From positions 10,497,819 through 10,561,818 of the forward strand of contig NC_049988.1 in NCBI RefSeq assembly GCF_000003815.2: 64,000 nt of DNA. The letters run 5' to 3'. Made by a program: the position numbers and the translations under genes. This document shows, piece after piece, positions 2,767-64,000 of this stretch. The DNA is from Branchiostoma floridae (lineage: Eukaryota; Chordata; Leptocardii; Amphioxiformes; Branchiostomatidae). The notes under the pieces were generated by a model that worked only from the letters and a program-made list of their open reading frames with translations, did not search any database and was not told the origin of the DNA. Positions within the stretch are counted from its first letter, which is position 1, and each line of letters starts with the position of its first letter.

Positions 2767-5700
2767 ATGGCGGCGTCCACGACAACAAAACAACAGGTGA
2801 GACCATCTTCTATTTCAGGGTTAGAAGGCCCTTATAGTCGGGTCGAATTTCGTTATAACAAAACTTGAAAGAACATTTTTTACTAATTCATTCTGATGTA
2901 TTAATTTACAAAGTTAAAAACAGATTAACTGTGATAACAATTTGTTAAATAAATAAATATGAATAAAAACATGTAGGGTAGACTACGGTAGTCTGCGACT
3001 CAACCATGCAGTAAAATACCTGCGAACTCGCTGCGACTAGAGTGGAAATGTGTGACCCTTAACTTCTTAATTTGAATGCAAGTTGTAAAAGTATTACTGA
3101 AAAGACATCAAAACACACCGTGAAAAGATCACGGTCTTATCTGTAAAATACGTTGATCGCTTTGTCAAATCTTAGGTCACAGTAAGGTCGCTTAATCATT
3201 GGAATGGGCGTTTAAAGAGGCACGGCGTATGATAATTCTGTGACCAACATGTCATATCCTAGATTTCAGTGTATTGCTTTTCAATCTCTTTTAATTTGCG
3301 CTGGGACAGACGAGGACAATGTAGCAATGTACGTAAGTAAGTAACTTATTTTAACAGTGCCACATACATGATACAGACAGAAGGTAAATGTAGTATTTTA
3401 GTCTCTCCCCTTACCGAAGTCAGGTACCCATTTTTACACCTGTATTTCAATCTGTTCTAACTTTAGGTCGCCGAGACAGACGACGAAAAGCAGGCCCGCC
3501 TCCTGAACCAGCATCCCGAGATGAAGCCTATCCTCAGGATCATGGACAGGGGCGTGGCTCAGGTGAAAGAGAAGAAAGGCGACGAAGACAGCATCGGCGA
3601 CGTCTACGAACGAGTCGACAAAGACATTGACGACCCTTACTGGAACTTCAAAGGAAAGATTCAGAGGCAAATCCAAGCTGAGCACCTCACCAAGATCGGG
3701 GCGGCCGGTATCTTTACGGATTACCTGAAATTCCTCAAGTCCACGGGCAACATGTTTGATGATGAAACCGTATGGGAGTGTTACTACGCCATTAGGAATT
3801 GTTGTTGGAGTTTTTCGGATGCAAGCTTCAACTTTGCGAAGAGGCTAGGAAAGGCCGGGCTCTTCCCCATGCTGATAGAGGACCTGAAACAATATAAGAA
3901 AACGTTTCAGACAAATCAGGTAGGTGTCGTTTTGTTTGGTTTGGTATTCACTCTTGCGTTTACTTTTACTTTCGCTGAAGTTCCTTGTCCAGCATTGACT
4001 TATTAATGACATTCTCTAACCATACTATCTTCGCTGGCTTGAAAAATATAAAATTTGGCCAAATAGTAACAACATTTTTTTCAGGGGTTTTGCCACCTTA
4101 GGGTAATGGGGGAATGTTACACCTATCTCAGGCTCATTCTCATGGCTAATCACCTAGCCTATATTTGCAGTGAGAGTAATTACCTTTAGGGATAATAATT
4201 TGCCAGGGTAGTTTGGCCAAAGGGTTTCATTGGCCGGTGCATGTTAACCTTAGCGTGGACGGACTCTCTTGCCAAATAATCCCCCTTTTTCCGAATTCTA
4301 CCATCCCCGTAGGAAGGCCTAATAGAGTCTACTTTTTTTGCCTAATTCTCCTTTCCTTATGAAGACCCGGTATAGGGTTATTAGATATCAATACTATGGC
4401 CATGAATCACAGGGTAGAATTTTGCATAGTTACCGCAAACGATTGATAAAAATCTTGTACCGAAACATGGATATGGTATCATAGCGACATTGGCATAATA
4501 AAGTGAACTGACTACTGGTACATGGGTAAATACACCGTGTCTTAGTCTCCGGGTAACTATTAACGTGAAACACACAAACAAACAATGGCTGTTATGTACA
4601 TGTCCGTATCTGCCAGGCGTTCGTGGGTGTACTGTTTACTCTGTTGACCACGCAACTGAAACAAAGAATACATTATTGCAAGGAGGCTGCTTACAATGTA
4701 TTGCCATCAATTTCAAATGCGATTTTGGTAATTACTTTTCTAAGAGAATTTCTATTTTCGAAAAATCTTAACGCCAATTCACTCTGAAGATTTCCTGATT
4801 GTGTAAATCTTTGGAGGTATTCATGATACAAAATATAACACTTCCAATTGTGTTTTGTACCGTACTAATATCATGTAATGGGATTGGGGCTGGGAAGAAA
4901 GCAATTCACACATTTCTGTGAAGCACGATGAAGTATACCTGGGCATCGTACATTCATAGATGGTGTACCACAGATGAGCCACCAGCGTCCAGCAATGAAA
5001 TCCAAAAATATACAGAAGCAAGCAATACGACCGGATTCGCTTCTAAAGCTACTTTTATAAAGTCGAAAACCCAAATCTACCATTTGAAAAATGTTGCAAA
5101 TATTTGTAAATATTTCCGCCACGTTAAAACCACTTGATATGATATTAAAAGAAAACGGTCATATCATTTCTGTAGGCACACAATTGGCTGGTGAGATGTT
5201 CGTTGGGAATCCTCCACAACTGTGCCAAGGTGATGGAGAACAGAGCCATCCTCAGACCGCTGGGGCTGATCGACCAACTCCTGCCCTGGATCAACACGTC
5301 CGACGAGGAACTCAAGACTGTCACAGTCATGACTCTGGCCTACATCGTTGGTGAGTCTTGGAAATAATTTAGCCTTTGAAATGATACTTAAACACGCTAT
5401 ACTATCAAGATCATAACATTTTTGCCTCTTTTGTTGCTTGGTGAATTGTTATATTGTCTTGCAAAACCAAGACCTGAATTAGTGAAACGTTGTCTATACT
5501 TGATGATTGAAATTGAATACATATATATTAGATGATAACTCAAAGTATACGGACTTTATCATAGATAACAACTTAAATCATCGTCCTTTGAAACCTTCAA
5601 TCAGTTTCCAACAGAACTGCAATAGTCTAAGACACTTTATGTGTTCTCAGAAAATTTCAAGGATCTAAAGCTTATGCCAAAAACAGTTACTCAAGCAACT

Positions 5701-8700
5701 GGATATGATTTTGGAAACGGTCAGACGTTTCAGACAACCATCCGGTGTCTTTCGTCAGTGTCATTGGATGGTTGTCTGAAACCTCTGATCCTTTCCCAAA
5801 TCATATCCAGATGCTTGAGTAACTGTTTTGGCGTACCTTAAAGCCTATGTTCATCATCTGTATCTGTAGCTGGTTATATTACACTGAACGATCCGTCATA
5901 CCTAACTTTTGCACATCTATCTGCAAGCGTTCTTTAAAACTATCCAGAAAAGATGCCCCTACTGTGCTTGGTGATAACAAGTTCCACTCTACGATAGTTC
6001 TGGGAAAATACGAATTTTTGAACACATCAATCCTAGGTTGGTAACTCTTGTACTTGAAGCCATAGCTGTTTCTTGTTCATATCCATCATCATCATCATAA
6101 CAGGTGAGGAGGATAACGACCTGATCATGGCTGATGACAGCGTGATCAGCTTCATCATGACGGTGTTTGAGGAGGCGGTGGACAGCGAGCTGATGCGGTC
6201 CCAGGGCTTCTCCGCCATGGAGATGGCCATGGGCATCAGCCAGCTGGCGCAGAACGACGACAATAAGGTCGGGATCTGCACTGATTGTTCTATATTAAAG
6301 CTTAAGTAAGGATCAAGTTTGATTAGCTTCCAATGTATTCTGAAGATCATTGCAGTCGACGAAAAGGGAATAGTTTATACGACGTAAGGGACCGTTTTGG
6401 AAGACTCTCGTCTATGCAAGGAGCTTTTTTCCTTGATAAAAGCTCCTTGGTCTATGCCACTCTGCCTACATGAAAAGATTGAGGGGCAAATTGGTAGACA
6501 GGTTTTGGTGGACACGCCTGTCGGTGATCACGTGACTAAATCCTGTTCTCCTATAGGCCGAATCAATAATTCTGAATGCCAGGAACGGTTCATAGTTGTA
6601 CATGTTTGAATCTTTTATGACTCCTGGAAGACTAGTGTTATGTATGCATATACTCACTAATGTGGACCTTTCAAGTGAAGAAATAAAAAAATACGGTGAC
6701 AACTACATGTTTTCTTATTATACAAAAACATCTCAGTACAATGCTAAACTTTCCTCCAACACAAAAGTACACACGGATCGAATTTCAACGACCACTTCGC
6801 TTTCTGCAGGATCAATATACTAATGACCAATATCACTTCAGAACGTAAAGTCGGATTAAGACGTGATGTTGCAGATACGTGTCGTCAGCAATTGGTCAAA
6901 CGTGCCAGGAAGTTTAGAACGTCCACCTTCTCTGTTCAGTGAGGGCTGGAGTGCCCTGGTGTATATGGCCTCCTTTATAACTGTTACATGTATTCTCAGT
7001 CAAGGCAGTTACATCCCTGTTTCCTACGTACCTTGTGCACCACCAGGTGATGATTGTGAAGAAGGGTGCCCTCCCCCTGCTGGTACAGCTGATGGAGACA
7101 GGTGATGAGGAGGAGCAGGAGCAGGGCGCTAACGCCGTCTGGCAGCTCGCCTTCCACGACGACAACAAGGACAAGATCCGAGCCGAACCGAGGCTCATGT
7201 ATCAGCTCAAAAGGTCAGAACGTACTTTGAAATTCCTGACGAAAGGTAGTGGATTCTACCTGAATCGTCTGACCGTTTCCAAAATCATATTCAGTTGCTC
7301 GAGTAATTGCTATTTGGGGTTAGCTTTGGTACCATCCGGATAGTAGTTCGCTCCGACGTTTATTATACATTATATACAATCGCTTTTCGCTCCGACTTTT
7401 GATAATGAGTCGATAATAGTTATCTGCTATTCAGAAGCGAACATATAAGAGAACTAATGCCCGTATGGTACCCAGGCTAATTTGGCGTATCTTAGTACCT
7501 AAATGTCTAACCTTCATGGACTCATTTAGCAGATATATTTCGACATTTGAACAGTTCTACATGTTTGCTCATGTCAACTTTGTCTCTGATGTTCTTAGAT
7601 GTTAACTGATTTCGTTTCTTAACAGGTTAAAGGACAGCAAGAACCAGGAGACTGCCAAGGCAGCTAACGGAGCATTGTGGGTGCTTGATAAACAAGCTAG
7701 GGGTAAGAGTTCACTTCATCTCCACAAAGTTTCACTAAGTTAGAAAGCTATGTGCACGTATCAAAAGCGTTGGTATAAAAAGCCACCTGGCTTTCATACA
7801 GGACAAAAGAATTACACTTTGCACTATGCCCTACTGCTACTGTCTTACTGTCATCATGGATGTGTACATTCTCGTGAAATGATGCATACGAGCAACATAC
7901 CTAACATATTTTACTTCTTGTGCAGAGGAAAAGGCAAAAGAGCTGTCAGAGAAGTCGGAAGAGTCCAGCAGAGAAGATCTTCAGGAGGGCAGCGGGCCGC
8001 ACATCATGATCAGTTACCAATGGGACCACCAGAAGACACTCGTTAAGGTTGGTAGTTATCTCAGAATATGTCTGTAGGTGTGCTATCAAAGTCTGTAAAA
8101 ATACTGCGCAGGAAATGGCTCCATACAGCTAACATCTATCAGTCTAACTTCTTCCATCGCATAACTACTTGGAATATGGAATTAGTCCATTGACTATACC
8201 AGATTCCGGTACCAAATCAAACCAAATGCAAAATATAAATGCCTTTATGATAAGTACTTGACCATATATACTTTTCCTACAACGAAAAGCGCAAGTTTCC
8301 AGTTTATAAGGCAATTGTGTTTAATCAAATGAAGCAAAACGCAAACTGTAGATGCCTTCACGCGATAAATGCTTCAATCTAAATCCACAGCCAAAAGCGT
8401 TCTAACAAGTATTAGTTTGCGGCGATTGAGTTTAACCAAATGAGTATGTAAGTTTTGAACCCCACAACCCAAAGCGCAATAGAGGTTCTACAAGTTTCCA
8501 GCTTAGGAGGCAATTGTGTTTAACGAAATCAAGCAAAACACAAACTCTGGATACTTTAAAAATCTTAATCCACAGCGAAAAGCGTTCTACAAGTATCTAG
8601 TTTTCGGCGATAGTCTTTAACTAAATGAGTATGTATACAAGACTGATTGTGTGACTGAGTGAGTATATAAGACTTTAAATGATGTAAACTGTATATGCAT

Positions 8701-10919
8701 TGTCTGGCCTTTGCCTCTTCCCTCATGACCTCAGTGAAAAGCGGCCTGCATGCCGATTTGAGCTTTCATGAAGAAACCAAATAACAGGTGTACATTTTGC
8801 CCCCTGTCCGTAGGTGAAGGACCGTCTGCAGTCGTACGGGTACCGCGTGTGGATGGACCTGGAGCAGATGGGCGGCTCCACGCTCCAGGCCATGGCGGAG
8901 GCGGTGGAGAACTCCGTAGTCGTGCTCATCTGCATGTCTCAGAAGTACAAGGAGAGTCCAAATTGTAGAACCGGTGGGTCATTCTTTGAATTCTTTTAAC
9001 TATTGGCACATTTGACCAATTGCTGACGTCAGGTATCCGCAAGATCACGTGCTAATAGATTACGTGTCTGTTACTCTCGCTAGTCTACGTTCTAAAGTGA
9101 TTTTTTGACACTTAGCACTTTTGACCAATTGCTGACGTCACATGTTCGCAAGATCACGTGTTAATGAATAGTGTTGATAGACCACGAGTTTACGTTCTGA
9201 AGTGATTGGTCATCAGCATCGATCCTGAATAAGTTATCCTTGAAAATATGATCCATGTATACCTTTGTGTTGGAAGAACGTTTATCATTGCACTACCAAC
9301 ACAGTTGAGCTTCCATGATCTTTTAGATCTTGTTTGCCGTTGTATTAACGTTATATATGTAAATGTATTGTTAGTTGTCTTTTTAGATAACATAGCCACT
9401 GGTATATTCGGTGGGCCTTCTAAGTCAAAGAAACGGACAAATGAAATATACATATTTTTGCAGATTTCTGTCAGCAATGACAACACAAGTGCTTTGCAGT
9501 TTTCAGAGATAAATTGTCGTCTTGTGATATTTTTCTCATATGCCCAACAGAGGCGGAGTACACCTTTCAGCTCCGTAAGCAGATCGTGCCCCTGATGATG
9601 GAAGGGAAATACAAGCCGGACGGCTGGCTCGGCGCCATCTTGGGAGCCAAGCTGTACTTTGACTTCAGCGCGCAACACAAGTTTGAAGACTCCATTGGAA
9701 AACTCATCAAAGAGCTAGGTAAATTTTCTTTTCTAGATCTAACAGCACATATGAGGCTAAAACGACATATTTACTAGAACACTGTACTGTACTCTACAAG
9801 TTTGAAGACTGAACTGGAAAACTCATCAAGAGTAAACGTGCATTTGCTCCTACAGTTTTACGTCACAGCGCAGCTAGATCATCGGTTTGTCTAGCAGCAC
9901 GTACTTAAGATTCACTTAAGGCCGAAACGACATCGCCCTTGTCACAACTTTGCTAGAACAGTGTTCAGTATCTCTAATAGCTACAACTCCATTCACAATG
10001 GCTGTAAAATCACACTAGTCACGGGCTATCATATTTTCTTTGTAAATTTCAGGACAGAGAGGTAGGTCAGCACAACTGGTCCAAAAGGTGCAGGCAGTGG
10101 AGGTGGGGGCCGGCGGAGCGGGGGCATTACCCATCATGCCTCCTGCTAAGCCTCGCGTGTTGGATTGGAAACAGGCGGAAGTGGACAACTGGATAGCAGA
10201 GAACCGACTTGAGAAGTAAGAATTATTACTGAATAGATTAAATGCGTAGCCATCTCAAACATAGAATATAAAAACCTAGAAGGGGAACCAGGTGTTCCAC
10301 AGGGTAGAATCCTGGGACCATGACTCATTAATTTATATTACTAGGCAAGTTTGTGACGGGACTAACCTACAAGATCAATAAATAAAATAAATAGATTATA
10401 TTTTATATTGGGTGACGGTTATCTTTAGGCAACAACATGGACAGTAATGTTACGCATGGTGTCAGGAGTCATCTTTCTTTTCAAATGTAAAGCAGTTTGC
10501 CTCTGTGTGTTTGACAGGAACTTCCTTCGAGAGCTGACAGGACCACAACTGCATTTCTTACAGTCCTTAAGAGGAGAGGTGAGTTCATTAACTTTATAGC
10601 ACTGATTCCATGACGGCATGACCTGAGTTTTCCGTAGTCTGTCTTCTCAACGATAACTAGCTTTGACCTCTGTCTAGATCACTCAAAACAGTTTTAGTAC
10701 AAAGCTAAAAGCCTACCAACTACAACAGCCAAAGCTATAACATCTCTAACGACATTTCTTGCTATAACAGTTATACCTCATCATGATTACCATTTTCGAA
10801 CCATATATTTTTTACAGGCCCCTGAGTTCTTCTACCAGTTCATAACCAACAAGTTGAAGCTCTCAAGTCTGGACCAGATCATGAGGTTCACCAACGCACT
10901 CAACGGCCTGGACGGCTGA
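2767..10919 (+). CDS. ARM-repeat, TIR and SAM-like domain protein (613 aa, 12 exons)
   Basis: Exons: 2767-2796, 3467-3919, 5176-5350, 6104-6267, 7047-7213, 7626-7702, 7926-8047, 8814-8973, 9551-9718, 10053-10215, 10518-10578, 10818-10919. Every join keeps frame; total 1842 nt including TGA. Residues about 90-355 are helical, armadillo-like, with repeat-type segments such as GALPLLVQLM and GANAVWQLAF. A TIR domain spans about 381-505: IMISYQWD, then GYRVWMDLEQMGGSTLQAMA, then VVVLICMSQKYKESPNCRTE. E450 sits in a C-x2-E arrangement matching the catalytic glutamate position of NAD-cleaving TIRs; E452 is the alternative. A SAM-like domain covers about 543-608 (LDWKQAEVDNWIAENRL, then ELTGPQLHFL). 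TIR domains act as signalling scaffolds or NAD hydrolases. SARM1 has ARM-SAM-SAM-TIR, so this is a different order and probably a separate invertebrate family. No signal peptide or TM, so cytosolic. The start is chosen for its MAAS context; exon 1 is only ten codons. Confidence 0.92.
3285..3440 (-). repeat. fragment of tRNA-derived SINE tail
   Basis: Within ARM-TIR intron 1 the phrases gacgaggacaatgtagca, acagtgccacatacatg, tacagacagaaggta and tacccatttttacacctg occur in the same order as in the SINE at 54300-54540. The tRNA-like head is absent. A diverged, truncated copy is the simplest reading. Confidence 0.5.
5675..5834. mobile_element. family B MITE, copy 1 (intron of ARM-TIR gene)
   Basis: A near-palindromic element of about 160 bp. 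The left arm runs GCCAAAAACAGTTACTCAAG and on through CAACTGGATATGATTTTGG; the right arm is its reverse complement, ending GAGTAACTGTTTTGGC. Internal arms (gtttcagacaaccatcc / ggatggttgtctgaaac) also pair. Copies at 7214-7320, 29053-29190 and 40084-40226. Confidence 0.75.
7214..7320. mobile_element. family B MITE, copy 2 (right end best preserved)
   Basis: Right arm GTCTGACCGTTTCCAAAATC through CAGTTGCTCGAGTAATTGC matches family B. The left arm is degraded, and the copy reaches close to the exon 5 splice donor at 7214. Confidence 0.5.
7323..7479. mobile_element. family H MITE, copy 1
   Basis: The left end TACCATCCGGATAGTAGTTCG is mirrored at the right end (AGAACTAATGCCCGTATGGTA, then CCAGGCTA). 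Internal tandem phrases (atcgcttttcgctccgac) match the copy at 12438-12650. Non-coding. Confidence 0.55.
8281..8640. repeat. imperfect tandem repeat in ARM-TIR intron 7 (about 200-bp unit, 2 copies)
   Basis: GGCAATTGTGTTTAATCAAA near 8312 recurs as GGCAATTGTGTTTAACGAAA near 8511. Each is followed by aagcaaaacgcaaact-type, aatccacagc-type and aaaagcgttcta-type phrases in the same order. Diverged duplicate, no ORF. Confidence 0.55.
9005..9210. repeat. 109-bp tandem duplication carrying CCAAT, CRE-like and CACGTG sites
   Basis: Two copies, offset 109 bp, in ARM-TIR intron 8. Each holds TTTGACCAATTGCTGACGTCA followed about 15 bp later by AGATCACGTG. The palindromic TGACGTCA sites are at 9024-9031 and 9133-9140; CACGTG is at 9046-9051 and 9155-9160. 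TGACGTCA is the CREB/ATF consensus and CACGTG an E-box. Use as an enhancer is inference. Confidence 0.5.
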
Positions 10920-12730: not shown

Positions 12731-14609
12731 ATGATGACGTTTCTCGTCATCTTACTGGTTGCCATGGTGACGGCGTCCTCAGCGTGTCCGTCAGTTTGCA
12801 GGTATGTATCTAATGTTGCCGTTGCCAAAAAAGGTCTTTTAACATTCCGTTTTCTGTTTATTCTAGTCTAGCGATTCCACAATAAGCAGTTATGACTTTG
12901 GGATTGAAAATGTTGGTGTTTTCAATTGCACCATTTTCATTTCTTTTTAGTGCAATAACAAATTCTCAAACAGAAAAAAACGAGTACAAATTACAAAGGA
13001 CATAAGACACATCTATCGTTGAAGAGGTTCATCAGTCACGTATGAGTATGTTGGTAGTGTAATTTTTCTATCTTCTATTCAATACTCACTGATTGAAGAA
13101 TTACTCTATCAACATAAGACGCATTTGCATTATGGATGTTTCCCTAGATGTACCGGCACAAGAGCAGACTGTAGCCGGGCGCACCTGACTGCCATCCCGT
13201 CAGATCTCCCCCACAACACCACCGAACTCATCCTCCGGGAGAACACCATCACCAACATCAACAACAACACTGCACTCCTCACCCTGAAGAACCTCTCATC
13301 CCTAGATCTACAGGACAACCTCATCAGTGTTGTTGTCTCTCACTCGTTTCCAGGTCATTTACAGAAGCTGAATTTGGCAAAGAATTCCTTCCAGTGCTCT
13401 GAACAAGATTTTCTTAACCTAGAATCTCTTCATAATCTCAAAGAGCTTGATTTGTCTTATAACAACATAGAAGTGTGCATACCTGACAATTTTCCTACCA
13501 GTCTCCAAGTACTTCGTTTGGATAAGATAGCTTATCATGGCAACTTAACTCTGGGTCCCCGACAGTTTGAAAACCTAACGGCTCTCACGCTGCTGTCCCT
13601 CGAGCAAAATGATATAGTAAACTTTCCTAGCGAAGCCCTTGGAAAGCTGTCAACTCTAACAGATCTCTCCTTGGCGAGAAACAAGCTGAGATTTCTCGAT
13701 GATTTGGTCTTACCCAGCTCTGTGAAACTTCAGCTTCTGGATCTAAGCTTCAATGAATTGAGCCAAATCAGTACCCACAGTTTTAGTGGTATTGAAAAGT
13801 CTTTGTTGAAATCACTATCTCTTTCTGGTAATAAAATCAAGACTATAGCTCCGTCGGCCTTTTCTCAAATGCCGCAGTTGAAGAATCTTACCATGGACCA
13901 AAACCCATGGCATTGTGGATGTGATTTGCTCCCTTTCCGAGAATGGTTAGAAAACGTTACTGTTCGGGAGTTACTTGGAATCACTAAGGGGCACGCTCTG
14001 AACTGTGAGTCTCCCGAAGACTTGAAAGGCCGGATGGTGAGTGAGGTACCCCTGCATTACTTCTGTAGCAACACTACTGTTCCTCCCTCAACCACCCTGC
14101 ATCAGACGACAATCCCCTCTAACGTTACCATGGTAACCGTCTCTAATGTCTCCACTATGAATCCTCTGACGTTACCACCAGATAAGAGGCTATTCAACTT
14201 CAGCATTGACAGAATTTCCGAGCAAACTGTGCAGCTATCATGGGCCTGCAGTGATCCTAATATTGTATTTCAGGTTTCTTGGAGTTCCAAACATTCTTCC
14301 ATGAGTTACAGTGGTTGGGAAAAAGGAACTTCCTTTGGCATTGACAATCTTCTTCCAAATACAAAATATCATATTTGTCTCATGGCGATGGTTGAAAAGG
14401 CAGCAACAGGATCCGGAAAGGAAGTGCAGTCGTCGTGTATGTCAATCATAACCACTGCTAAGCATGATGGTCTAGCGGGAGCTGGTCTGGGATTGGCTGT
14501 TGCCTTTCCCATCTGCTGTCTTGTGATTGGTGGATTGGGTGTTTTTGTTGGTCGTCGATTTTGTGAAAGAAAGAGTGGTGGTTATCAGAGCTTCAATGCC
14601 CAAGTCTAA
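12731..14609 (+). CDS. leucine-rich repeat transmembrane receptor (510 aa, 2 exons)
   Basis: Exons 12731-12801 and 13148-14609 join in phase 2 (CAG|GTATGT donor, CCCTAG acceptor). Exon 1 encodes a signal peptide (MMTFLVILLVAMVTASSA) and the first cysteines of an LRRNT cap, so the split cap CPSVCRCTGTRADC becomes complete only after splicing. About eight LRRs follow (for example LSSLDLQDNLISVV, LKELDLSYNNIEV). An LRRCT cap lies at about 276-329 (NPWHCGCD to HYFC). A Thr-rich linker is followed by a fibronectin III-like domain at about 375-458, a TM helix near 466-490, and an 18-residue tail with YQSF, a YxxPhi-type sorting motif. The predicted role is cell-surface recognition or adhesion. The LRRNT/LRRCT layout resembles AMIGO/LRIT-like receptors and agnathan VLRs, but there is no evidence of rearrangement. 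No cytoplasmic signalling domain is present, so a partner would be needed. Confidence 0.92.
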
Positions 14610-35138: not shown

Positions 35139-38100
35139 GTTGGCCGCATGTATAGCGCATGCGTACAGGTCGTCCCATGCTTACATCCGGGCCCTTTTTG
35201 TTTTTGTTTACCTGCGTTGTTTATCCGGTACACAGACGGCAAAGTGAGGTCATTCACCCTTATCCAGGTACAAAACCCGTCTGTATTGTGCCATGGAATA
35301 GCAGTGGTGTATTGTCTTTATATGGGAAGGACTCTAGTTGACGGAAAATGGACGTAGTGTGATGAAATGGCTGTGCTTGGCATCATTGTTGATCGTAAAC
35401 AAAAGACTAAACATATGAATAATTAATTAGGTATCGGGATCCGGTTTGAACCGGTTTTTAACACTGAAAAGCGCCTCCTTGCGGCCAAAGTCACGATGAC
35501 GCAGCTGAAAATGAGGATGGCGGTTGGATAGTAGAGCGTCTTTCTTGTGTCTCACTGGATAATTGTAGAGTCAGTTATTTTGCTTGGACCTTTAAAAACT
35601 CTTTTTATGCTGTTAGTTACTTCGTTAGTCCGTTACTTGCACAGTAATCAATTGCTTTACACGCTAAGAATCAATTATTTTCATGCTAAGAACTTTCATA
35701 CTTAGACAATTATTTTCCAGTTATTTTTTACGAAATATCTCATGTTACGCTATTATTTTTTTTGTGTGGTTTAGATAGAGTGAAACTATGTCAAAATTCC
35801 TCCTATTGCTTGCAAACCAGTTTTACGTTGTTGTGTTTTGCCTGGGTTTAATTAAGGATATTCTACATTTCAAAAGGCAGATACATTATCAACGTTATAC
35901 TGAATTTCTTTAATAGCCATACTGTTTTTGGCTTCCGTTTTTTTTTTTTTCCAGTGTACTAACGTTAGTCGCACAGATTGATGTTCATATCATTTTATAA
36001 TCAAATATGTTAGTGGCCTTTGGCATTAAAGAAGAGATCATTTTAAACGAAATGGAAGAAATGTTTCGGATTTGTGGCTTTCACGTGTTGTCATTGTCAG
36101 GAAGGCGAAACTTTCCCATAGAAAGATATAAAGTTCAACGATAAACGATCAAGTTCAACTATGTCAGTATCTATTCACCACGTTATCAGAGATGATCCCT
36201 GACACGGACTTCTCCTAGATCTTTCGCCCTGGACCGCCTTGGTCTCCAAGCAGACATCAGCTGGATGAAAAAAAGAGAAGAATTTGGCCAAATAGGGACA
36301 AAAAGTTGCCATGGGATTTCAGTCAGTCTTTTGCAGTCTATCCGCTGGCAGGACAGTTCACTCATATACCAATTGTCTCCTCCTAGGCCCAATTCCTTAC
36401 TTAAATTGGCCAAAGTCCCTTATCACTATTCGGCCAGTGGTAGAGACTAGACCTCCTCTCCTAAGCCTGTTGCTACATTCGATTGCGTCCGCATTTAGCC
36501 CCTGGTAAACGTTAGCCCACGTTACTATAATCAAGGAGGTTATATTAAAACTGCATATCATGATATTTCACTGTCAGGGGCTGTTTGGACTTCCTCCCCG
36601 AGAGGCCTAAGGGCCTGAGAAGTTGAAGGGCTGCTGTGAACGTTAATGTTAGCTATACATTGTACTACACAATATTAAGGAACAATATTGCTTTTCTGGC
36701 TACTAATAAGAAGAACAATATTGCTTTTCTGGCTACATCCGACAAGTACCAGTGGCAACGACGAGGTCAACTTGTCGGCTGGCCATGGATAGAGATGTTG
36801 TGTAATCAATCATCAGTATGACGACGTTGTTGTGGTGCATCATTAGGCCATGTTGATTTGATGATATAGATTACATCATCTGGGAGTCTAAAAACCGATG
36901 CGAGCGCGTGAATAAAAAAAGTTTGACAAAAAAGTTGTCTTTATTATGAAATATAGGTTTGGAAACAGACGAAAATTGATGCGCGCGGATGTCATACATA
37001 TAATCAAATGAACATGGCCTTATTCAGAATCCGACGAAGATGAATTTCAATTTTCATACACTGTTACCGGTAGCGCCGAGATATAATCTACCATGGAAAA
37101 ATGCCCTTTCTTAAGCAATATTACGTAAAGCGTAAGTTGAAAACGAGTTATCACCGAGACAGTCCCTACAGACAATAACTTGTGTATTATTCATAAGCAT
37201 GATCAGAAATTTATGTAGTGGCAATTCCCTTATCAAATTAGAATATCAAAGGCGCTGTGATGCACTAATTGTGAAGCCTAAGAACATTTGTTGCACAATT
37301 GAAAAGAATCGTAAGATGTCGCTTTTGACAATCGATTAGTTAGGCAAACCTTTCCATGCGAAATGTATACGGAATGCCATTGGCCAAATTGTTAGCTGAA
37401 AGGCAGGCACAATCGACCTAAAACTTAAATGTTATGGCCATTATGGTTTTTGAAATCAGTATTTTTATGGAGAAAAACTTTTTTTATATCAGCCTGTATA
37501 GTACAATATTGCTCATGACTAAAAAAAAAACGCACAGTAAAACCCCTTGGTATATCAAGTGTGTAGACTTAATGTTTTAATGCGGTATTCAATATAGTGC
37601 AGTTAACAAAAAGAACACGAGCACTACTAGAACTGAATGTGCTGGGAATAAAGAACATCAATAATTATATACATCTCTGTCTCTGTTGGTACATTTATTT
37701 CTTAGAACGAGTGACGTTATTTATATGTAGTTAGAAATGGTTAAAACTATCATCCTCGTGTTAGATTCGGTGTAAATATGATATTTGTTACATAAATGAC
37801 ATTTACGTCATAAGTCGTTTCGGTATTAAGTCACAACAAAAATAACCCATTTTACAAAGTTATGGTTAGTCTTTGAAACATTTTCCCCTGAGTAACCTGT
37901 CTACCTTGTGGTGTACACATATGACCAATATATACATAGATATTATATTTAGTTGAAATCGTCCCATGGTTTGTTGTAGTCGAAGTGTTTTCTCAGCCAA
38001 GCCTCCACCTTAGTATTGTTTCGTCTGATTTCTGCAGTTTCCTCTTCATCCGCAAGGTGAACAACAGGCTGCCTCTGTTGCTGCGGCCGGTTTGTTCTTG

Positions 38101-38166
38101 ACGTATTCTGTAACCTGTCTACCTTGTGGTGTACACATATGACCAATATATACATAGATATTATAT
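35139..38166. other. upstream region of SUMO and downstream region of the 38 kb gene
   Basis: The SUMO promoter must lie just above 35138; no TATA box was seen. A 25-bp phrase (aacaatattgcttttctggctac) is tandemly repeated near 36681-36738. Much of 36850-37900 is AT-rich without ORFs or domains. A duplicated gene end occupies 37892-38110. Confidence 0.5.
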
Positions 38167-38330
38167 TTAGTTGAAATCGTCCCATGGTTTGTTGTAGTCG
38201 AAGTGTTTTCTCAGCCAAGCCTCCACCTTAGTATTGTTTCGTCTGATTTCTGCAGTTTCCTCTTCATCCGCAAGGTGAACAACAGGCTGCCTCTGTTGCT
38301 GCGGCCGGTTTGTTCTTGACGTATTCACGT
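37892..38330. repeat. 219-bp tandem duplication covering the 3' end of the hypothetical gene
   Basis: The sequence from GTAACCTGTCTACCTTGTGG at about 37892 restarts at about 38111 and matches base for base, as far as I can read, to the GACGTATTC junction. The distal copy (38111-38330) holds the true last 50 or so codons and stop of the gene at 38167. The proximal copy repeats those codons downstream as dead or alternative 3' sequence. 219 is divisible by three. A recent duplication or an assembly artefact are both possible. Confidence 0.9.
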
Positions 38331-43323: not shown

Positions 43324-46300
43324 TCAATCTACTTCCTCGGTGCCTTGCACGTTTTTCTTCGTCCTTTCCTCCCAGTCCTTCTCCATTCTCTGGTTGTAGA
43401 GCCGGTCAAACTGTGTGACGATGACGGGCACGGGTAGGGAGATGGTCAGGATGCCGGCCAGGGCGCACAGTGAGCCGACAAACTTCCCTATCACAAACAA
43501 AATATAGAGACATTAGAACAAGAGTTCGTAGGACATATACCTCCATGAAGTAATTATGATGTTAACGGTGTGGCTAAGCTATTTGATACACTCTTCACCA
43601 AGATTAACAACTTCTTTAAAACTTTTACTGTTCATGTCCTGCAGTTGTTTATTATAATACTAGCCAGTAACCAAGGTAGTGTAGCAAGCCGTCACCTAAC
43701 ATCTGCTTGGAGAAAAGAGACAAACAACAATTGATTAAATGGCTGTACCACAAAACCTTTAAGATGGGGGTGTCTATCTACAATTCTCTGAAACCTGAAC
43801 ATACTGCTGATGTGCCTGTTTCGTCGGGACCTCAGTAACTTCCAACATGCCAAATATAAACCGAATCCATCGAAGGGGGCATGAAGCTGCGAACACACAG
43901 ACACAGACAAAACAGTACCTCCACTGAAGGGCACTGAAGTGAAGTGATAAAGATGCAGCGCTATGGCTTGACGTTTAGAATTTGAGGATGAAGCACACTT
44001 CAGCCAGTTATGCATATATAATATATGATATTTGCTATATCTGACATACTTTAGTAGATATGCACATATAGCTAGCCACATTATCTATGGCATTACAAAT
44101 ATTGTTTACATTTCCTTTAGAGCTCTCTACCTGATGCATTAAAAGATCAACACGCATTAAAAGTAAACAGCCCACATGTAACGCGTTGACAAAGAGACAT
44201 ATATCTTACATAATCTTTGGGCCATTTGTTAAACCCAGAGTCTTTCGGCACTTTTACCGGAGCTTAATAAATCCAATGAGTCCGTGCTATGATGACCTAG
44301 AAGTTACAGGTGTTTGGGGTTTGTTTATTTGTTTAGGAGGGTTTGTAGTTAATGATGGGAAACAAAAAATGAGGAGTGGACGGTCCTGACCCACCTGCTC
44401 CGGTCTGTGGGTAGGTGTCACCGTACCCCAGGGTTACCATGGTAACGATGGCCCACCAGAAGGCGTCAGGGATGCTGGAGAAGTGCGACTCGGAATCTTC
44501 CGGCTGGAGTGAAATGATTAAACAGAACAGCATTCAGAGAACACAAGCATACCGAGATGCTAATACTGGGTGATGAGACCAAGGAGGTTGAGAAGAGGGA
44601 CATATTCTATCAGTTTCAAGTTCCTATCAGTTTCACGGATTCTCCACCATCTAATAATCATTATCATGATCAGGACACAGTGCCAGTGCAGTGCCAATGA
44701 AATTTTCCTACGCTCTGACATACCGTCCTTGTTGTAATTGCTACAAACCTCAACATGTTTCAAAATGATTTATGTTTGTCTGTTTCTTTAATTAGGATAC
44801 CCACTACTATTGCATTTTGTTTCAGACTATTCTGCCGTTTATGGAACAATTGAATGAAGTGTAAAGAACATAATATTGTATTATTGGTAAACAGGACTGA
44901 TACAAAATAATAATGATAATAATAATAATAATAATATCGGGTGTATTTTGCAGCCAGTAGATACCCAAAGTGTGGGTAATGAGGTCGAGGCACCTCCTCG
45001 AGCACGGGACCCCCGTTTTACGTCCCTCCCGGAAGACGATTTCGTGGAAAGCTTCGTGAGGCTCAAATGTATATTTTAAAAGTGAGAAGCAGAGCTCAAC
45101 ATAAGACAATGGAAATATGATTTGGTTATTATATCAAATGAAAGATAAGTGGTAAAAATATTAACAACTTGAGTGAACCAAGCAAATGATATGTAATACC
45201 GTATTTAGGACAGTTCGAAAGTCTGTATCTGCATTCGTTGTGTTTTTCTTAGTTTTAATTACCTGAAGTTGTTCCACAAAGTAGATAGCTGAAGCGAACA
45301 GGATGACGAGGATGACCATGAAGACCAGCAGCATGCCGATGTCACTGCCGCTGCCTGCCAGGGTACTGCCCATCATCTTCAGACCCTCCGAGTACCGCGA
45401 GAGTTTAAAGATGCGCAGGACGCGAACCAGCCGCATCAGCCGCAGAGTCAGCGACGCCTTGCGGTACCTGTTGGAACGGCAATGGTTTTCTTGCATACGA
45501 AACAAGGCCGCCCAAGGTATCGGCTGGGGTCTTTAGGAGATATGACAGCTGCAGGTGTTTGCCATATTGGATCATCGTATACACGATAAGGTAAGTATAA
45601 GTGTGCCAATTTCGGCTTCGTCGCTTTTGCTATAATGGCACATGACACTGATCTCCAAGTAAACTTTTTTAGTGCAGAAAGGTCACTTTTAGTGTAAAAG
45701 TAACGTTGCTCAAGCTCCGGAAAAATCCGACTGAGGGCTTGAGAAACATTATTTTGTCTTGCTACATCTGCTTGGAGAATGGCCCGACCACGTGTCTTTT
45801 TCATTAGAACCCCAATAAAATCCTGAAGCGGCATAAACCAATCAAACGACTAAAGGCTTTTTCTTATCATAAAGATATCGGCTGGAACAATCAAAGCAAA
45901 GCGCAATACATTATGCCGTCTTCGGCCTACGCCATATTCCAAACCAGGGCCCGGCCGGGCAGCTTTCGGGAACGAAAAGTACGATATAAAAGACACCAAT
46001 AATAATCAAGAGAATAATCGCGGACATCATCTATGTAGATTTGTACGTATACATGTCTATTTTTCGTTTCCACAGACAGCCCAACCGGGCCCCGGTTTAG
46101 AAATGCAACGTTAGCCTTCTTCTCCTTAAGGTGGTGTCTTACTGCACTTGGGGCACCGGTGCAGCACTTCGGGGTTCGAAAGATTACTCAACGAATTTCA
46201 GAGATAAAGAACGAATTTTCTAACGTTTTGTGTATTTCGATGTCTTCTAAGTCATACTTTTACGTATTACGCAATATCTAAATTCTAAGAAAATCGGTGA

Positions 46301-49300
46301 AAATAACACAACAGTGCCGCACCCCGCAGTGCCGCACCGGTGCTCCAAGTGTAGTGAAATACCACCTTTTACTCACAGTCCGCTGGTCTCCCCCTTACTC
46401 GCCAGCACCACAGACACGGTGATGAAGTACGGCACGATAGCGAGAATGTCAAACACATTCAGCACGCTCCTGAAGTAGTCCTTCTTACTGGGGCACGCCA
46501 CGAACCGCAGCACCACCTCTAATGTAAACCACGCCACGCACACTGTCTCTATCCAGAAAAACTCCGTGGTGAACTCAACCTCGGGGTTCTGAGCGCGCTC
46601 CGAGAAACCGGGTAACGTCTCAAGACATAAACTTGAGATGGACAAGAGGATGAAACAGACACAAAGCACGGCGTATAGTTTAGCCCAGACGGAGCTCCCT
46701 GGCAATTCCAGAAACAGCCATAGTTTACCGAAACAGCCGTCACGGTTGAGGCTCAGCTGTGAGCTGGCCACGCTGAAGCCTTCCTTCTCACGATATTTCT
46801 CGATGACGTCATCACCTAGCTGGAAGAATCGAAGCTCGTCTGTGAAGACGTCGAGAGGAACTTCACTGGGTCTGCAAAGGGGAGGGGGGAAGAATCATAA
46901 AGAGATAATCTTATTTAACAGAAGTCCTTCTTGCATCATTCTGTTATCTATCACTATATTTGACGATTTATATTGGTGAAAATTCTGTCCTCCTGAATGC
47001 ACTGCATATCTAATCATAATCTACTAGCAGATCCTATTATGGTACAAGATAGTATGCCGCGGCCATCTGACCAAGGAGGGTAGTCAGCCAAGAGGTGTAA
47101 ACTCCTTTGGCAGTTTCTGATACTATCTTATGCTACCGTGGAATTTGCTTGGAGATTACTGTATATCTAAGTTAAACCCCTTGTTCTGCTGAGCCCGTGT
47201 ACCTGTATATGGGTCCAGTATCTTTATGGGTTTGGAGTATTTCTCACTTAAATGTGGCATACCAAAGCAGACCACATCGATTGGGGGAGTAAATCTGCAG
47301 CAGCAGCACAGAACAGGTCAAGTTTTACTGGTCTGATTATTCAAACGGCTTAGGGGGGTCAAATTGGCAAACAAATCTTAACAGGACAAGTGTTTGAAGT
47401 TGACAACAGACAGACCACAACATTGAATAGCGTCACAAAAACTATTCATTTTTCTTAATAACTTCAACACACACCATATACCAATTAGAATCCTGCCAAT
47501 ACCAGCTATTCTATTTTTGGTGGTAACGCTCTATTTGTGTAGGGAATCTTGCTAAGCGAAAAAAAATACCCCTTCATCTTCGTATTCCACAACGCTGATA
47601 TTGCCCAACCCCGAATGAAACTGCTTCAAATCCATCGTCCACCCAACCAATTACCGCGACACGAAGATTGCCGCTTCCAATCGGGAAAACATCAGCACTT
47701 CGGATTCATCCCGGCGTGCTTTACGGGTCCGCTGACCTGATTTATCGATTCATGTCGTCTGATTGAGACCAATAAAACTGGTCCGGTATTGGCGCCATTT
47801 TAGGGTGGCATCTCACTGCACTTGGGGCACCAGTGCGGCACTGCGGGGTTCGTTCACTGCGGCAATGTTGTCTTATTTTTATTTCGATTTTTTTATAATT
47901 TAGATATTGCGTAAATGTATGACTTAGAAGACAAGAAATAAACAAAACGTAAGTATATATTTTTTAATCTCTGAAATTCGTTGAGTAGTCTTTCGAACCC
48001 TAGAGTGCCGCGCCGGTGCCCCAAGAGAAGTGAGATACCACTTTAGACAGCGAGGAGCTATATGTGTAGAATGGTGTAAGATGATGGCATGGGCAGAAAA
48101 GAAGCTAAGCGATTTTTGTTTACACTTTCTAAACATTGTGTTTTTTACAGATAAGGTTTGTGTTCAGATGGTTAATCAATAAGCCTAAGTAATTCACCAA
48201 AAAGAGTATTTACCGAAAACGACAGTTTACCTATTGCTCTCCACAACTGACGGGTTTACAGGATGAGCGTTATTTATTGGTTAAGTGGTGGGTCTAAAAG
48301 CTGATTAAGGAAGCCCTGTAACTGATGTCTTTGGGGGAAAGTGAATAATTGACCATCGTGGCGGATACAACATACTGAATTGCAGTTAATACCACCCTAT
48401 CATACATAGCAATAGATTACATACTTCTTGTCAGCACTCCACAGTGCGTCTATGCATCAAACGTAGTTAAAACGTAAACAGGCTGTCATAAGCAGACAAG
48501 ATCAACAATTGCTCGTTTTTCTCCGCCCTCGCTGGAATTTTCAGGCTACTGACTCAGAATGTAGTTAATGTAATTTGATTGGGTCTGTTTTAACTTAATT
48601 TGATATTATGTCTTGTCACATTTATATTACAAACAACCGCAACATTTCTAGCCTAATGCTCGCTTGCAACCCAATTCTTTATATCAAATCTGTACTTACA
48701 CGACAAAAGTCTAACGACATTCGCAAGGCCTTCTACAGTTATACATACATACCAGCAAGCAGATACACATATGCAATTGATGTATACTAGTAGATAAATA
48801 TCAAAATATTGAGTCCGACGTATCATTATACTACTCGTTTTTATGTCATAGTATTTCTAATATATTTACCTAATGGTACACAGTAAGGGTTTATATGTAC
48901 CAGTGTTAGGCTAACGTCATATTTCCACAAAGTGGCCCGGCCGGGCAGTCCGGGGGAACGAAAAGTACGATATAAAAGTCAACAAAAGCACAAAACGGAC
49001 CGAAAATAATTCAATAGCGTGCCTTTTGCATATTTATTGGCATAAACGTAAATTTTTCGTTTCCGCAAACAGCCCGGCCGGGCCCCGGGTAGGAAATGTG
49101 ACGTAGCTTGGCCCAAGGAAAGGACGTACCGATGTAACTTTCCACCAGTCTGGTAAAATGCGAGTATGGCCTCTGCGCTGGGCCTGTGTCTGTCAAAGAA
49201 ATACTCCCTCCTCTCGGCGTCGTAGTACTGTTGTCTTCTGACCGGGTCTCCTAGCAGCGTGTTCGGGAATCGAGCCAACGTTTCCGGCTGGGTTTCCAGC

Positions 49301-50224
49301 TTCAACCCGCTGACATTGATGACGACCCTGCCGAGACAAGATTGGCCTTGACATTGGTGGCGCGGGATGAGAAATTAAAATTTGGTTCCACGTTGATTTA
49401 TGAAAAGTGCTGCGGTTGACAAATGTACAGCACGAAGTCAGTGTCGAGTGCCTGATTAAATTTGCTTGTTGTGGGGTGATATGAGGTAAACTAATCATGC
49501 TAGCAGACGGGCTGTCAGTTTTGATTTAAAAACATGCTACGCTTACACATGGTTTATTGTGGCATAATTCACTATGTTGGCTTTTTATCTGGAAATAGAT
49601 ATAAGGTGTTACATGATTGGTTCTCCAGAAACCTCCACGTAAATCTTAATAAAGCTTTTTGTTTGATTACGTCACATTTCCTACCCGGGGCCCGGCCGGG
49701 CTGTTTGCGGAAGCGAAAAAAATAAAGTTTATGCCAACAAATATGCACAAGGCATGCTGTTAATTTTGGTCCGTTTTGTGTTTTTGTTGTCTTTCATATC
49801 GTACTTTTTGTTCCCCAGAACTGCCCGGCCGGGCCCTTTTGTGGAAACCAGCCTATGTCACATTTCCAGACCGGGGCCCGGCCGGGCAGTTTTTGGTAAC
49901 GAAAAGTGTGATATACAAGACACCAAAATACACAACAAGTAAAGAGGGCATTATTTGTGTATATTTTTACGTATACATTTCTGTTTTTCGTTTCCACAAA
50001 GATCCCGGCCGGGCCCATTTGCGGAAATGTGACCGTGATAGCCAAAGTTACCTGCAGCGGCGATGATCGTACTCTGCCCTCCGCCGGTCCTCCGTCAGGT
50101 CCCGTTGGTAGTCGCTCCAGCGGGGCGGTGCTTCCCTGGGCCGGGCCCTCCGCGGCTGGGCCCACGGGCTCCCCTTCTGCTCTCCCCCGGTCACGTCCAT
50201 CGAGGATATCAAGGCAGCCTCCAT
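43324..50224 (-). CDS. Shaker/Kv1-like voltage-gated potassium channel alpha subunit (447 aa, 6 exons)
   Basis: Minus-strand exons: 50052-50224, 49130-49327, 46377-46871, 45263-45467, 44395-44503, 43324-43487; phases fit and total 1344 nt including TGA. The T1 tetramerisation domain (about 57-160) begins [20 protein letters not shown] and includes FPNTLLGD and [11 protein letters not shown]1 is about 185-206, S2 227-247 ([10 protein letters not shown]), S3 258-279 and S5 327-355. S4 is about 292-314, with [17 protein letters not shown] giving the regular Arg/Lys every third residue. The pore helix [10 protein letters not shown] leads to the filter TLGYGD at 381-386. S6 carries the PVP bend at 412-414. 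Four subunits form a plasma-membrane K+ channel that repolarises excitable cells. The filter has Leu where TVGYGD is usual. The C-terminus is short and ends EEVD rather than the Kv1 PDZ tail. The start is ATG 50224 in the GAGATGG context. Confidence 0.94.
45931..46110. mobile_element. family A MITE, copy 2
   Basis: CATATTCCAAACCAGGGCCC with GGCCGGGCAGCTTTCGGGAA at the left; the right end has ACAGCCCAACCGGGCCCCGG and TTTAGAAATG. Lies in the Kv intron between the S1-S3 and S4-S5 exons. Confidence 0.75.
46128..46369. mobile_element. family I MITE, copy 1, ending at the Kv exon 3 splice donor
   Basis: Left AAGGTGGTGTCTTACTGCAC with TTGGGGCACCGGTGC; right GCACCGGTGCTCCAAGTGTA with GTGAAATACCACCTT. 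The arms are inverted repeats about 240 bp apart. The right end stops one base from the minus-strand donor of the exon ending at 46377 (GTGAGT at 46371-46376). The second copy is at 47798-48046. Confidence 0.8.
47798..48046. mobile_element. family I MITE, copy 2 (opposite orientation)
   Basis: TTTAGGGTGGCATCTCACTG at the left and GAAGTGAGATACCACTTTAG at the right. The interior matches copy 1 in reverse complement (gaatttcagagat / tctctgaaattc; tattgcgtaaatgta). Located in the long Kv intron. Confidence 0.8.
48915..49104. mobile_element. family A MITE, copy 3, next to the T1 exon donor
   Basis: ACGTCATATTTCCACAAAGT and GGCCCGGCCGGGCAG at the left; GCCCGGCCGGGCCCCGGGTA and GGAAATGTGACG at the right. 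The right end lies about 25 bp from the donor of the Kv exon that ends at 49130. Confidence 0.8.
49671..50034. mobile_element. two adjoining family A MITEs filling Kv intron 1 (copies 4 and 5)
   Basis: Copy 4 spans about 49671-49855 and copy 5 about 49855-50034. Both have GTCACATTTCC and CCGGGGCCCGGCCGGGC-type left ends and GGCCGGGCCC right ends. They share the joining GTCACATTTCC. Together they occupy half of the 724-bp intron and stop 18 bp from the exon 1 donor. Confidence 0.82.
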
Positions 50225-62305: not shown

Positions 62306-64000
62306 TCTTTCACTTTGTGATACAAGCACCAACCTTGGTACAGATACTCATTAGTCTTTACTGTTTTGAAAAAGTACGCGGGCCATTTGATTTGACTTTC
62401 GGCGCCCCCTAGCGGCGCGTTTTGGTACTGCAGCAGACCTTCCGGGCTTTGTATCTCCTGTTCTAAACATGCTACAGTCATGATTTTTATGTGGTAGAAA
62501 GCTGGTAGGGTAAGGAACAAGTGACGTAAGTTTGGTTTCCTTAGCGGCTTGCGTTGGAACTACAGAGGCATTTTTTTGCCGCTGCCGAATTGCCCTAGGG
62601 GCGCTTTTTGGTACTGCAGCAGACCTTCCGGACTTTGTATCTCCTGTTCTAGACATGCTACAGTCATAATTTTTATGTGGTAGAAAGCTGTTGTAGTAAG
62701 GATAAAGTGACGTAAGTTTTGTCTCCCTAGCAGCTTGCGTTGGAACTGCAGGGGCGTTTTTTTGCCGCTGCCGAATTTGAAGCGGAACAACTCCGAATGT
62801 TTAAAATGTCTAAAAGTATGGGACAGCTAAATGTTCAACTACAATTGTGATACAAGCACCAAACTTGGTACAGATACTCATTAGACTTTACTGTTTTGAA
62901 AAAGTACGCGGGCCACTTTATTTGACTTTTGGCGCCCCCTAGCGGCGCGTTTTGGTACTGCAGCAGACCTTCCGGGCTTTGTATCTCCTGTTCTAAACAT
63001 GCTACAGTCATGATTTTTCTGTGGTAGAAAGCTGGCAGGGTAAGGAAGAAGTGACGTAAGTTTGATTTCCCTAGCTGCTTGCGTTGGAACTACAGCAGCG
63101 TTTTTTTTTGCCGCTGCCGAATTGCCCTAGGGGCGCTTTTTGGTACTGCAGTAGACTTTTCGGGCTTTGTATCTCCTGTTTGAAACAAGCTACAGTCATG
63201 ATTTTTATGTGGTATGAAGCTGTTAGCGTAAGGACGAAGTGATGTAAGTTTGGTTTCCCTAGCAGCTTGCGTTGGAACTGCAGCGGCGTTTTTTGCCGCT
63301 GCCAAATTGCTCCTAAGGGCGCTTTTTGGTACTGCAGAAGACCTTCCGGGCTTTGTATCTCCTGTTTGAAACATGCTACAGTCATGACTTTTATGTGGTA
63401 GAAAGCTGTTTGAGCAAGGAAGAAGTGACGTAAGTTTGGTCTCCCTAGAAACTTGCGTTGGAACTACAGAGGCATTTTTTTGCCGCTGCCGAATTGCCCT
63501 AGGGGCGCTTTTTGGTACTGCAGCAGACCTTCCGGACTTTGTATCTCCTGTTCTAGACATGCTACAGTCATAATTTTTATGTGGTAGAAAGCTGTTGTAG
63601 TAAGGATAAAGTGACGTAAGTTTTGTCTCCCTAGCAGTTGCAGGGGCGTTTTTTTGCCGCTGCCGAATTTGAAGCGGAACAACTCCGAATGTTTAAAATG
63701 TCTAAAAGTATGGGACAGCTAAATGTTCAACTACAATTGTGATACAAGCACCAAACTTGGTACAGATACTCATTAGACTTTACTGTTTTGAAAAAGTACG
63801 CGGGCCACTTGATTTGACTTTCGGCGCCCCCTAGCGGCGCGTTTTGGTACTGCAGCAGACCTTCCGGGCTTTGTATCTCCTGTTCTAAACATGCTACAGT
63901 CATGATTTTTCTGTGGTAGAAAGCTGGCAGGGTAAAGGAAGAAGTGACGTAAGTTTGATTTCCCTAGCTGCTTGCGTTGGAACTACAGCAGCGTTTTTTT
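62306..64000. repeat. satellite-like tandem array, 186-188 bp monomer in a higher-order unit of about 0.9 kb, continuing past the window
   Basis: GGTACTGCAG recurs at 62424, 62610, 62954, 63142, 63328, 63514 and 63846. Most steps are 186-188 bp; two steps are lengthened by about 150 bp because a second segment (TGATACAAGCACCAAACTTG through AAAAAGTACGCGGGCC) is inserted. That segment recurs at about 62318, 62848 and 63740, giving a higher-order period near 892 bp. Monomers share CCTTCCGGGCTTTGTATCTC, CTACAGTCATGATTTTTATG, AAGTGACGTAAG and TTTTTTTGCCGCTGCCGAAT. Minus-strand ORFs of MTVACLEQEIQSPEGLLQYQ type are generated by the repeat. The array starts about 20 bp after the lipocalin 2 stop. 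Confidence 0.93.

Follow-up and report, generated by a model that had tools for sequence, protein, structure and literature searches.

An amphioxus ARM-TIR gene with a glutamate at the catalytic TIR position and a predicted helical tail

The window, by which we mean the whole 64,000-nucleotide stretch of DNA analysed, looks eukaryotic: it holds a split gene on the plus strand at 2767–10919, which encodes an ARM-TIR protein and is our main subject, as well as voltage-gated channel exons, a carboxylesterase-family exon, and a reading with leucine-rich repeat and fibronectin III features. The last of these, an unsplit reading of 494 amino acids at 13125–14606 (+), has leucine-rich repeats and a likely membrane segment near its end, and its fibronectin III match was weak and below the cut-off. 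The channel exons, which matched BTB_2 and Ion_trans, were located at 45164–49374 on the minus strand, and the carboxylesterase-family exon (7.4e-32) at 414–809 on the same strand. A 186-bp unit is tandemly repeated in two arrays, at 62407–62777 and 62937–63641 (90% and 87% matches, respectively), and a 218-bp unit was duplicated head to tail at 37892–38326 with 100% matches, which is possibly recent or an effect of the assembly.

Splice-site reading and translation gave 12 exons for the ARM-TIR gene, at 2767–2796, 3467–3919, 5176–5350, 6104–6267, 7047–7213, 7626–7702, 7926–8047, 8814–8973, 9551–9718, 10053–10215, 10518–10578, and 10818–10919 (+), which join without a stop into a protein of 613 amino acids, the same length as the complete reading claimed in an earlier, sequence-only reading of this DNA. 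All 11 introns begin with GT and end with AG, which on its own is weak support because the junctions were set by eye, without transcript data. Stronger support comes from the contrast in composition between the exons (GC 0.54, GC3 0.726) and the introns (0.379), and from the TIR profile PF13676, which was covered over its full length by exons 7, 8, and 9. The assembly of the gene without transcripts would fit an artefact in which two adjacent genes were mis-joined, but the stop-free chain of 12 exons, the distinct coding and intron compositions, and the complete TIR profile across three exons all speak against this, and we regard it as hardly credible. The ARM-TIR gene is a real, intact animal gene.

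Several smaller features were observed along the gene. Its start codon lies within AAGATGGCGGC (2764–2774), one of three plus-strand matches in the window, which resembles the YY1 site of some animal gene starts. A 34-nt copy of part of exon 9 (9677–9710), 91% identical, occurs in the following intron at 9796–9829; it carries a stop in the frame of the exon and is a broken partial exon duplication. Intron 3 contains a near-palindrome at 5680–5829, with arms of 64 nt that are 92% complementary and separated by 22 nt, and intron 5 has an arm related to these (7260–7314); together they resemble a small inverted-repeat mobile element.

The armadillo repeat region corresponds approximately to residues 67–355 (3635–7701 (+), exons 2–6; its borders are approximate). 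It was backed by Pfam, with at least one Arm profile match over the cut-off, by PDB sequence matches, and by a fold comparison indicating a solenoid; the ARM-like helical repeats proposed earlier are thus real and lie ahead of the TIR domain. Between the end of the ARM region, near residue 355, and the start of the TIR domain at residue 382 is a gap of approximately 26 residues. The single-sequence model of the full-length protein was poor (mean pLDDT 45, and 27–37 across the TIR domain).

The TIR domain (residues 382–502; 8003–9708 (+), exons 7, 8, and 9) was identified with Pfam TIR_2 (PF13676; 7.2e-24, 85.1 bits against a cut-off of 28, over the whole profile), with the bSEFIR profile, and in an alignment with five other TIRs. 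The classical TIR profile PF01582 scored 20.2 bits on the full protein, below its cut-off of 21.3, and 22.8 bits on the TIR fragment, just above it. In the PADLOC library, the TIR domain matched bSEFIR (8.8e-11), SAVED5-SAVED_TIR (5.4e-7), and two Aga_TIR-PNTD1-PNTD2 models (3e-6 and 5.5e-6), whose prefix Aga we take to mean Argonaute-associated. The search of the PDB with the TIR domain (E up to 10) returned nine rows, the best of which was a weak match to Cat1 (E 0.017); six of the nine were SARM1 chains, including one SARM1/tir-1 chimera, with a best E of 0.26. Cat1 and SARM1 both cleave NAD. The NCBIfam search with the TIR domain and the C-terminal tail gave no match for either.

Searches for relatives in contig collections gave pattern hits that did not hold up: with the TIR fragment, none of 75 pattern stretches in the genome contigs and none of seven in the viral contigs was confirmed as a relative, and the five viral loci that matched a nine-residue motif were not TIR-like outside it. 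The window itself has no match to this motif pattern because the codon of Glu450 is split by an intron. With tblastn, the TIR domain matched 58 plasmid records (E up to 5), of which 48 were from Enterococcus, and four phage records (E up to 1). Five of these 62 records, three from plasmids and two from phages, with all those of Enterococcus excluded, were aligned with the amphioxus TIR domain, to which they were 20–27% identical. Because the two from phages are almost the same sequence, this amounts to fewer than five independent TIRs, and the plasmid match L010 spans only 48% of the query.

The codon of Glu450 (8973 and 9551–9552 (+)) is interrupted by intron 8. In the alignment, from which SARM1 is absent, E450 was invariant in all six TIRs (that of the amphioxus protein and the five from plasmids and phages), as one of seven invariant columns that also included D411, the beta-B aspartate, whereas E452 was not conserved. 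This comparison supports the assignment of E450 to the position of the catalytic glutamate of TIR enzymes, and the candidate NADase glutamate chosen beforehand was the right residue. Four residues ahead of it, where WxxxE TIR NADases have the tryptophan of this motif (PMC11374754; also described as W71/E75 in PMC7075850), the amphioxus protein has Asn446 (8961–8963 (+)). As described in PMC11374754, the W204A substitution inhibited the activity of AbTir, the matching tryptophan was dispensable in TcpC, and, according to earlier work cited there, this tryptophan is strongly conserved in TIRs that make cyclic ADP-ribose and less so in those that are non-catalytic or make other products. A glutamate at the catalytic position is also common in TIRs such as those of TLR1/2/6/10, exceeding 90% in a TLR subgroup, and how often it occurs need not parallel the reported TIR activity (PMC7075850). 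With Asn446 at the tryptophan position, cyclic ADP-ribose would be an unlikely product of this TIR domain, and its cleavage of NAD is uncertain.

The C-terminal tail (residues 535–613; 10139–10916 (+), exons 10–12), modelled alone from its single sequence with AlphaFold2, was predicted to form five helices (mean pLDDT 74.2, pTM 0.55). It had been described as SAM-like, but no SAM family matched it in Pfam (E up to 10). Likewise, no SAM chain appeared in the PDB sequence search with the tail, among the 18 Foldseek matches of the single-sequence model (none of which reached E ≤0.001), or among the five chains listed of the 33 to which the tail was re-aligned. We also built our own SAM tests from SAM domains in the PDB, one of which was rerun with altered gap costs after its first result. 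The resulting SAM profile scored 0.1 bits against the tail (E 0.052 for one sequence), and with hhalign the tail was not above shuffled sequences; in this round of tests, two of 60 shuffles scored higher than the tail. In another comparison, three of 400 shuffles reached the score of the tail, which topped the other windows of the protein along a poor alignment path; in a further one, 18 of 1000 shuffles reached it, and windows starting at residues 96–106, in the ARM region, scored higher than the tail (2.6 vs 1.7). As no SAM match was found and the model has five helices, we refer to the tail as a predicted five-helix domain, which is perhaps a divergent SAM.

These results bear on the permuted ARM-TIR-SAM order described in the sequence-only reading, and on the proposal that the protein is a permuted SARM1, in which the same three kinds of domain occur in an altered order and form an NADase inhibited by ARM and assembled by SAM. 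The presence of both ARM and TIR, as in SARM1 and TIR-1, with a glutamate in the C-helix region at the catalytic position (E450), agrees with this proposal, as do the five helices of the tail model and the weak SAM-like signal above shuffles in the comparisons with 400 and 1000 shuffles. However, that signal is offset by the poor alignment path in the former, by the higher-scoring ARM windows in the latter, by the two of 60 shuffles that beat the tail, and by the lack of a SAM family in the Pfam search. SARM1 has an ARM domain, two SAM domains, and a TIR domain at its C-terminal end, whereas here the TIR domain occupies residues 382–502 of 613, and there is no space for SAM domains between ARM and TIR because the gap is so short. 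The PDB search with the N-terminal half of ARM gave 31 rows, none of them a SARM1 chain, and SARM1 was also absent from the matches listed for the whole protein (60 of 90 PDB rows); the similarity of the TIR domain to SARM1 was weak, and the pocket tryptophan is missing. These data do not support the permuted SARM1, which we consider improbable; a separate domain combination is the simpler view. What the sequence-only reading had seen was borne out for the ARM repeats, the TIR domain, and E450 and not for the SAM tail, and its interpretation stands as far as E450 and the position of ARM ahead of TIR are concerned, whereas the SAM identity and the permuted SARM1 are not supported.

We are confident that the gene encodes an intracellular member of the "ARM-TIR" adaptors counted in invertebrates, and its product probably oligomerizes to signal. 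That it cleaves NAD is possible, and we lean slightly against it; the combined mechanism, in which a TIR domain held by ARM and the tail signals after triggered assembly, is likewise put forward tentatively, at somewhat less than an even chance. In the resting state, the ARM solenoid and the tail would keep the TIR domain apart or masked; a partner or small molecule bound to ARM would act as the trigger; copies would then assemble via the TIR domain and the tail, and the assembled TIR domain would signal. If NAD is cleaved, linear rather than cyclic ADP-ribose, or a weak activity, would be expected because E450 is kept and the WxxxE tryptophan is an asparagine. Such a switch is favoured by the ARM and TIR matches, the invariant E450 and D411, the matches of the TIR domain to bacterial defence models, and the published ARM-TIR class, and disfavoured by Asn446 and by the frequency of the same glutamate in the TLR1/2/6/10 TIRs. 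Its most specific form, an animal TIR enzyme that does not belong to the lineage of SARM1, is controlled by ARM, assembled by the tail, and uses the glutamate without the WxxxE tryptophan to make a non-cyclic product (linear ADP-ribose or another) as an immune or cell-death signal, is rather unlikely.

The protein could instead be a non-enzymatic scaffold or adaptor, with the TIR domain joining TIR partners (e.g., in the TLR and MyD88 pathways), ARM and the tail serving in recruitment, and E450 having a role in structure or assembly only. We give this a substantial, if slightly less than even, chance. It is favoured by the asparagine at the position expected for the catalytic-pocket tryptophan and by the high frequency of the glutamate in a TLR subgroup, which need not track activity; in amphioxus, TIRA, TIRC, and SARM are described in a review as inhibiting TLR signalling via protein contacts (PMC6043800). 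Arguing against the scaffold are the TIR_2 type of the domain, its significant scores with TIR and SEFIR models from bacterial defence, and the borderline scores of the classical profile. With its ARM domain, the glutamate at the catalytic position, and a possible assembly tail, the gene is a clear test case for the role, enzymatic or scaffolding, of the little-studied ARM-TIR proteins of invertebrates, and its NxxxE variant gives a sharp prediction on the product.

ARM-TIR proteins with a similar tail are probably common in invertebrate protein databases. Among bacterial defence proteins (bSEFIR, SAVED-TIR, and Cat1), the likeness to the amphioxus protein is in the TIR sequence, to which the comparison is limited, and the five plasmid and phage TIRs share the glutamate at the position of E450 at an overall identity of 20–27%. 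In amphioxus, 28 TIR domain combinations are reported, including a TIR-SAM hybrid with a reported cDNA (model Brafl1_131196; PMC2575513), which, by its published description, unites a TIR domain and an annotated SAM domain in one protein; the string "ARM-TIR-SAM" did not occur in the literature collection searched. Lancelets are also included in group 18, a set of TIRs with varied architectures that come for the most part from lower metazoans (PMC7075850). An "ARM-TIR" category was counted among oyster genes (PMC4346834), 10 (text) or 11 (table) such proteins were reported in Aplysia, where their function is called unknown (PMC9334734), and Arm is paired with TIR in multiple choanoflagellates (PMC6040629). 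Like these proteins, that of amphioxus combines armadillo-type repeats and a TIR domain, and it has the domains required by the rule in Table 5 of PMC9334734, as assigned by Pfam instead of the InterPro entries given there; unlike it, they are described, in the passages of these sources that deal with them, without mention of a helical domain after the TIR, a comparison of descriptions only. Judged by its domains, the amphioxus protein looks like a further case of this known, poorly understood ARM-TIR class.
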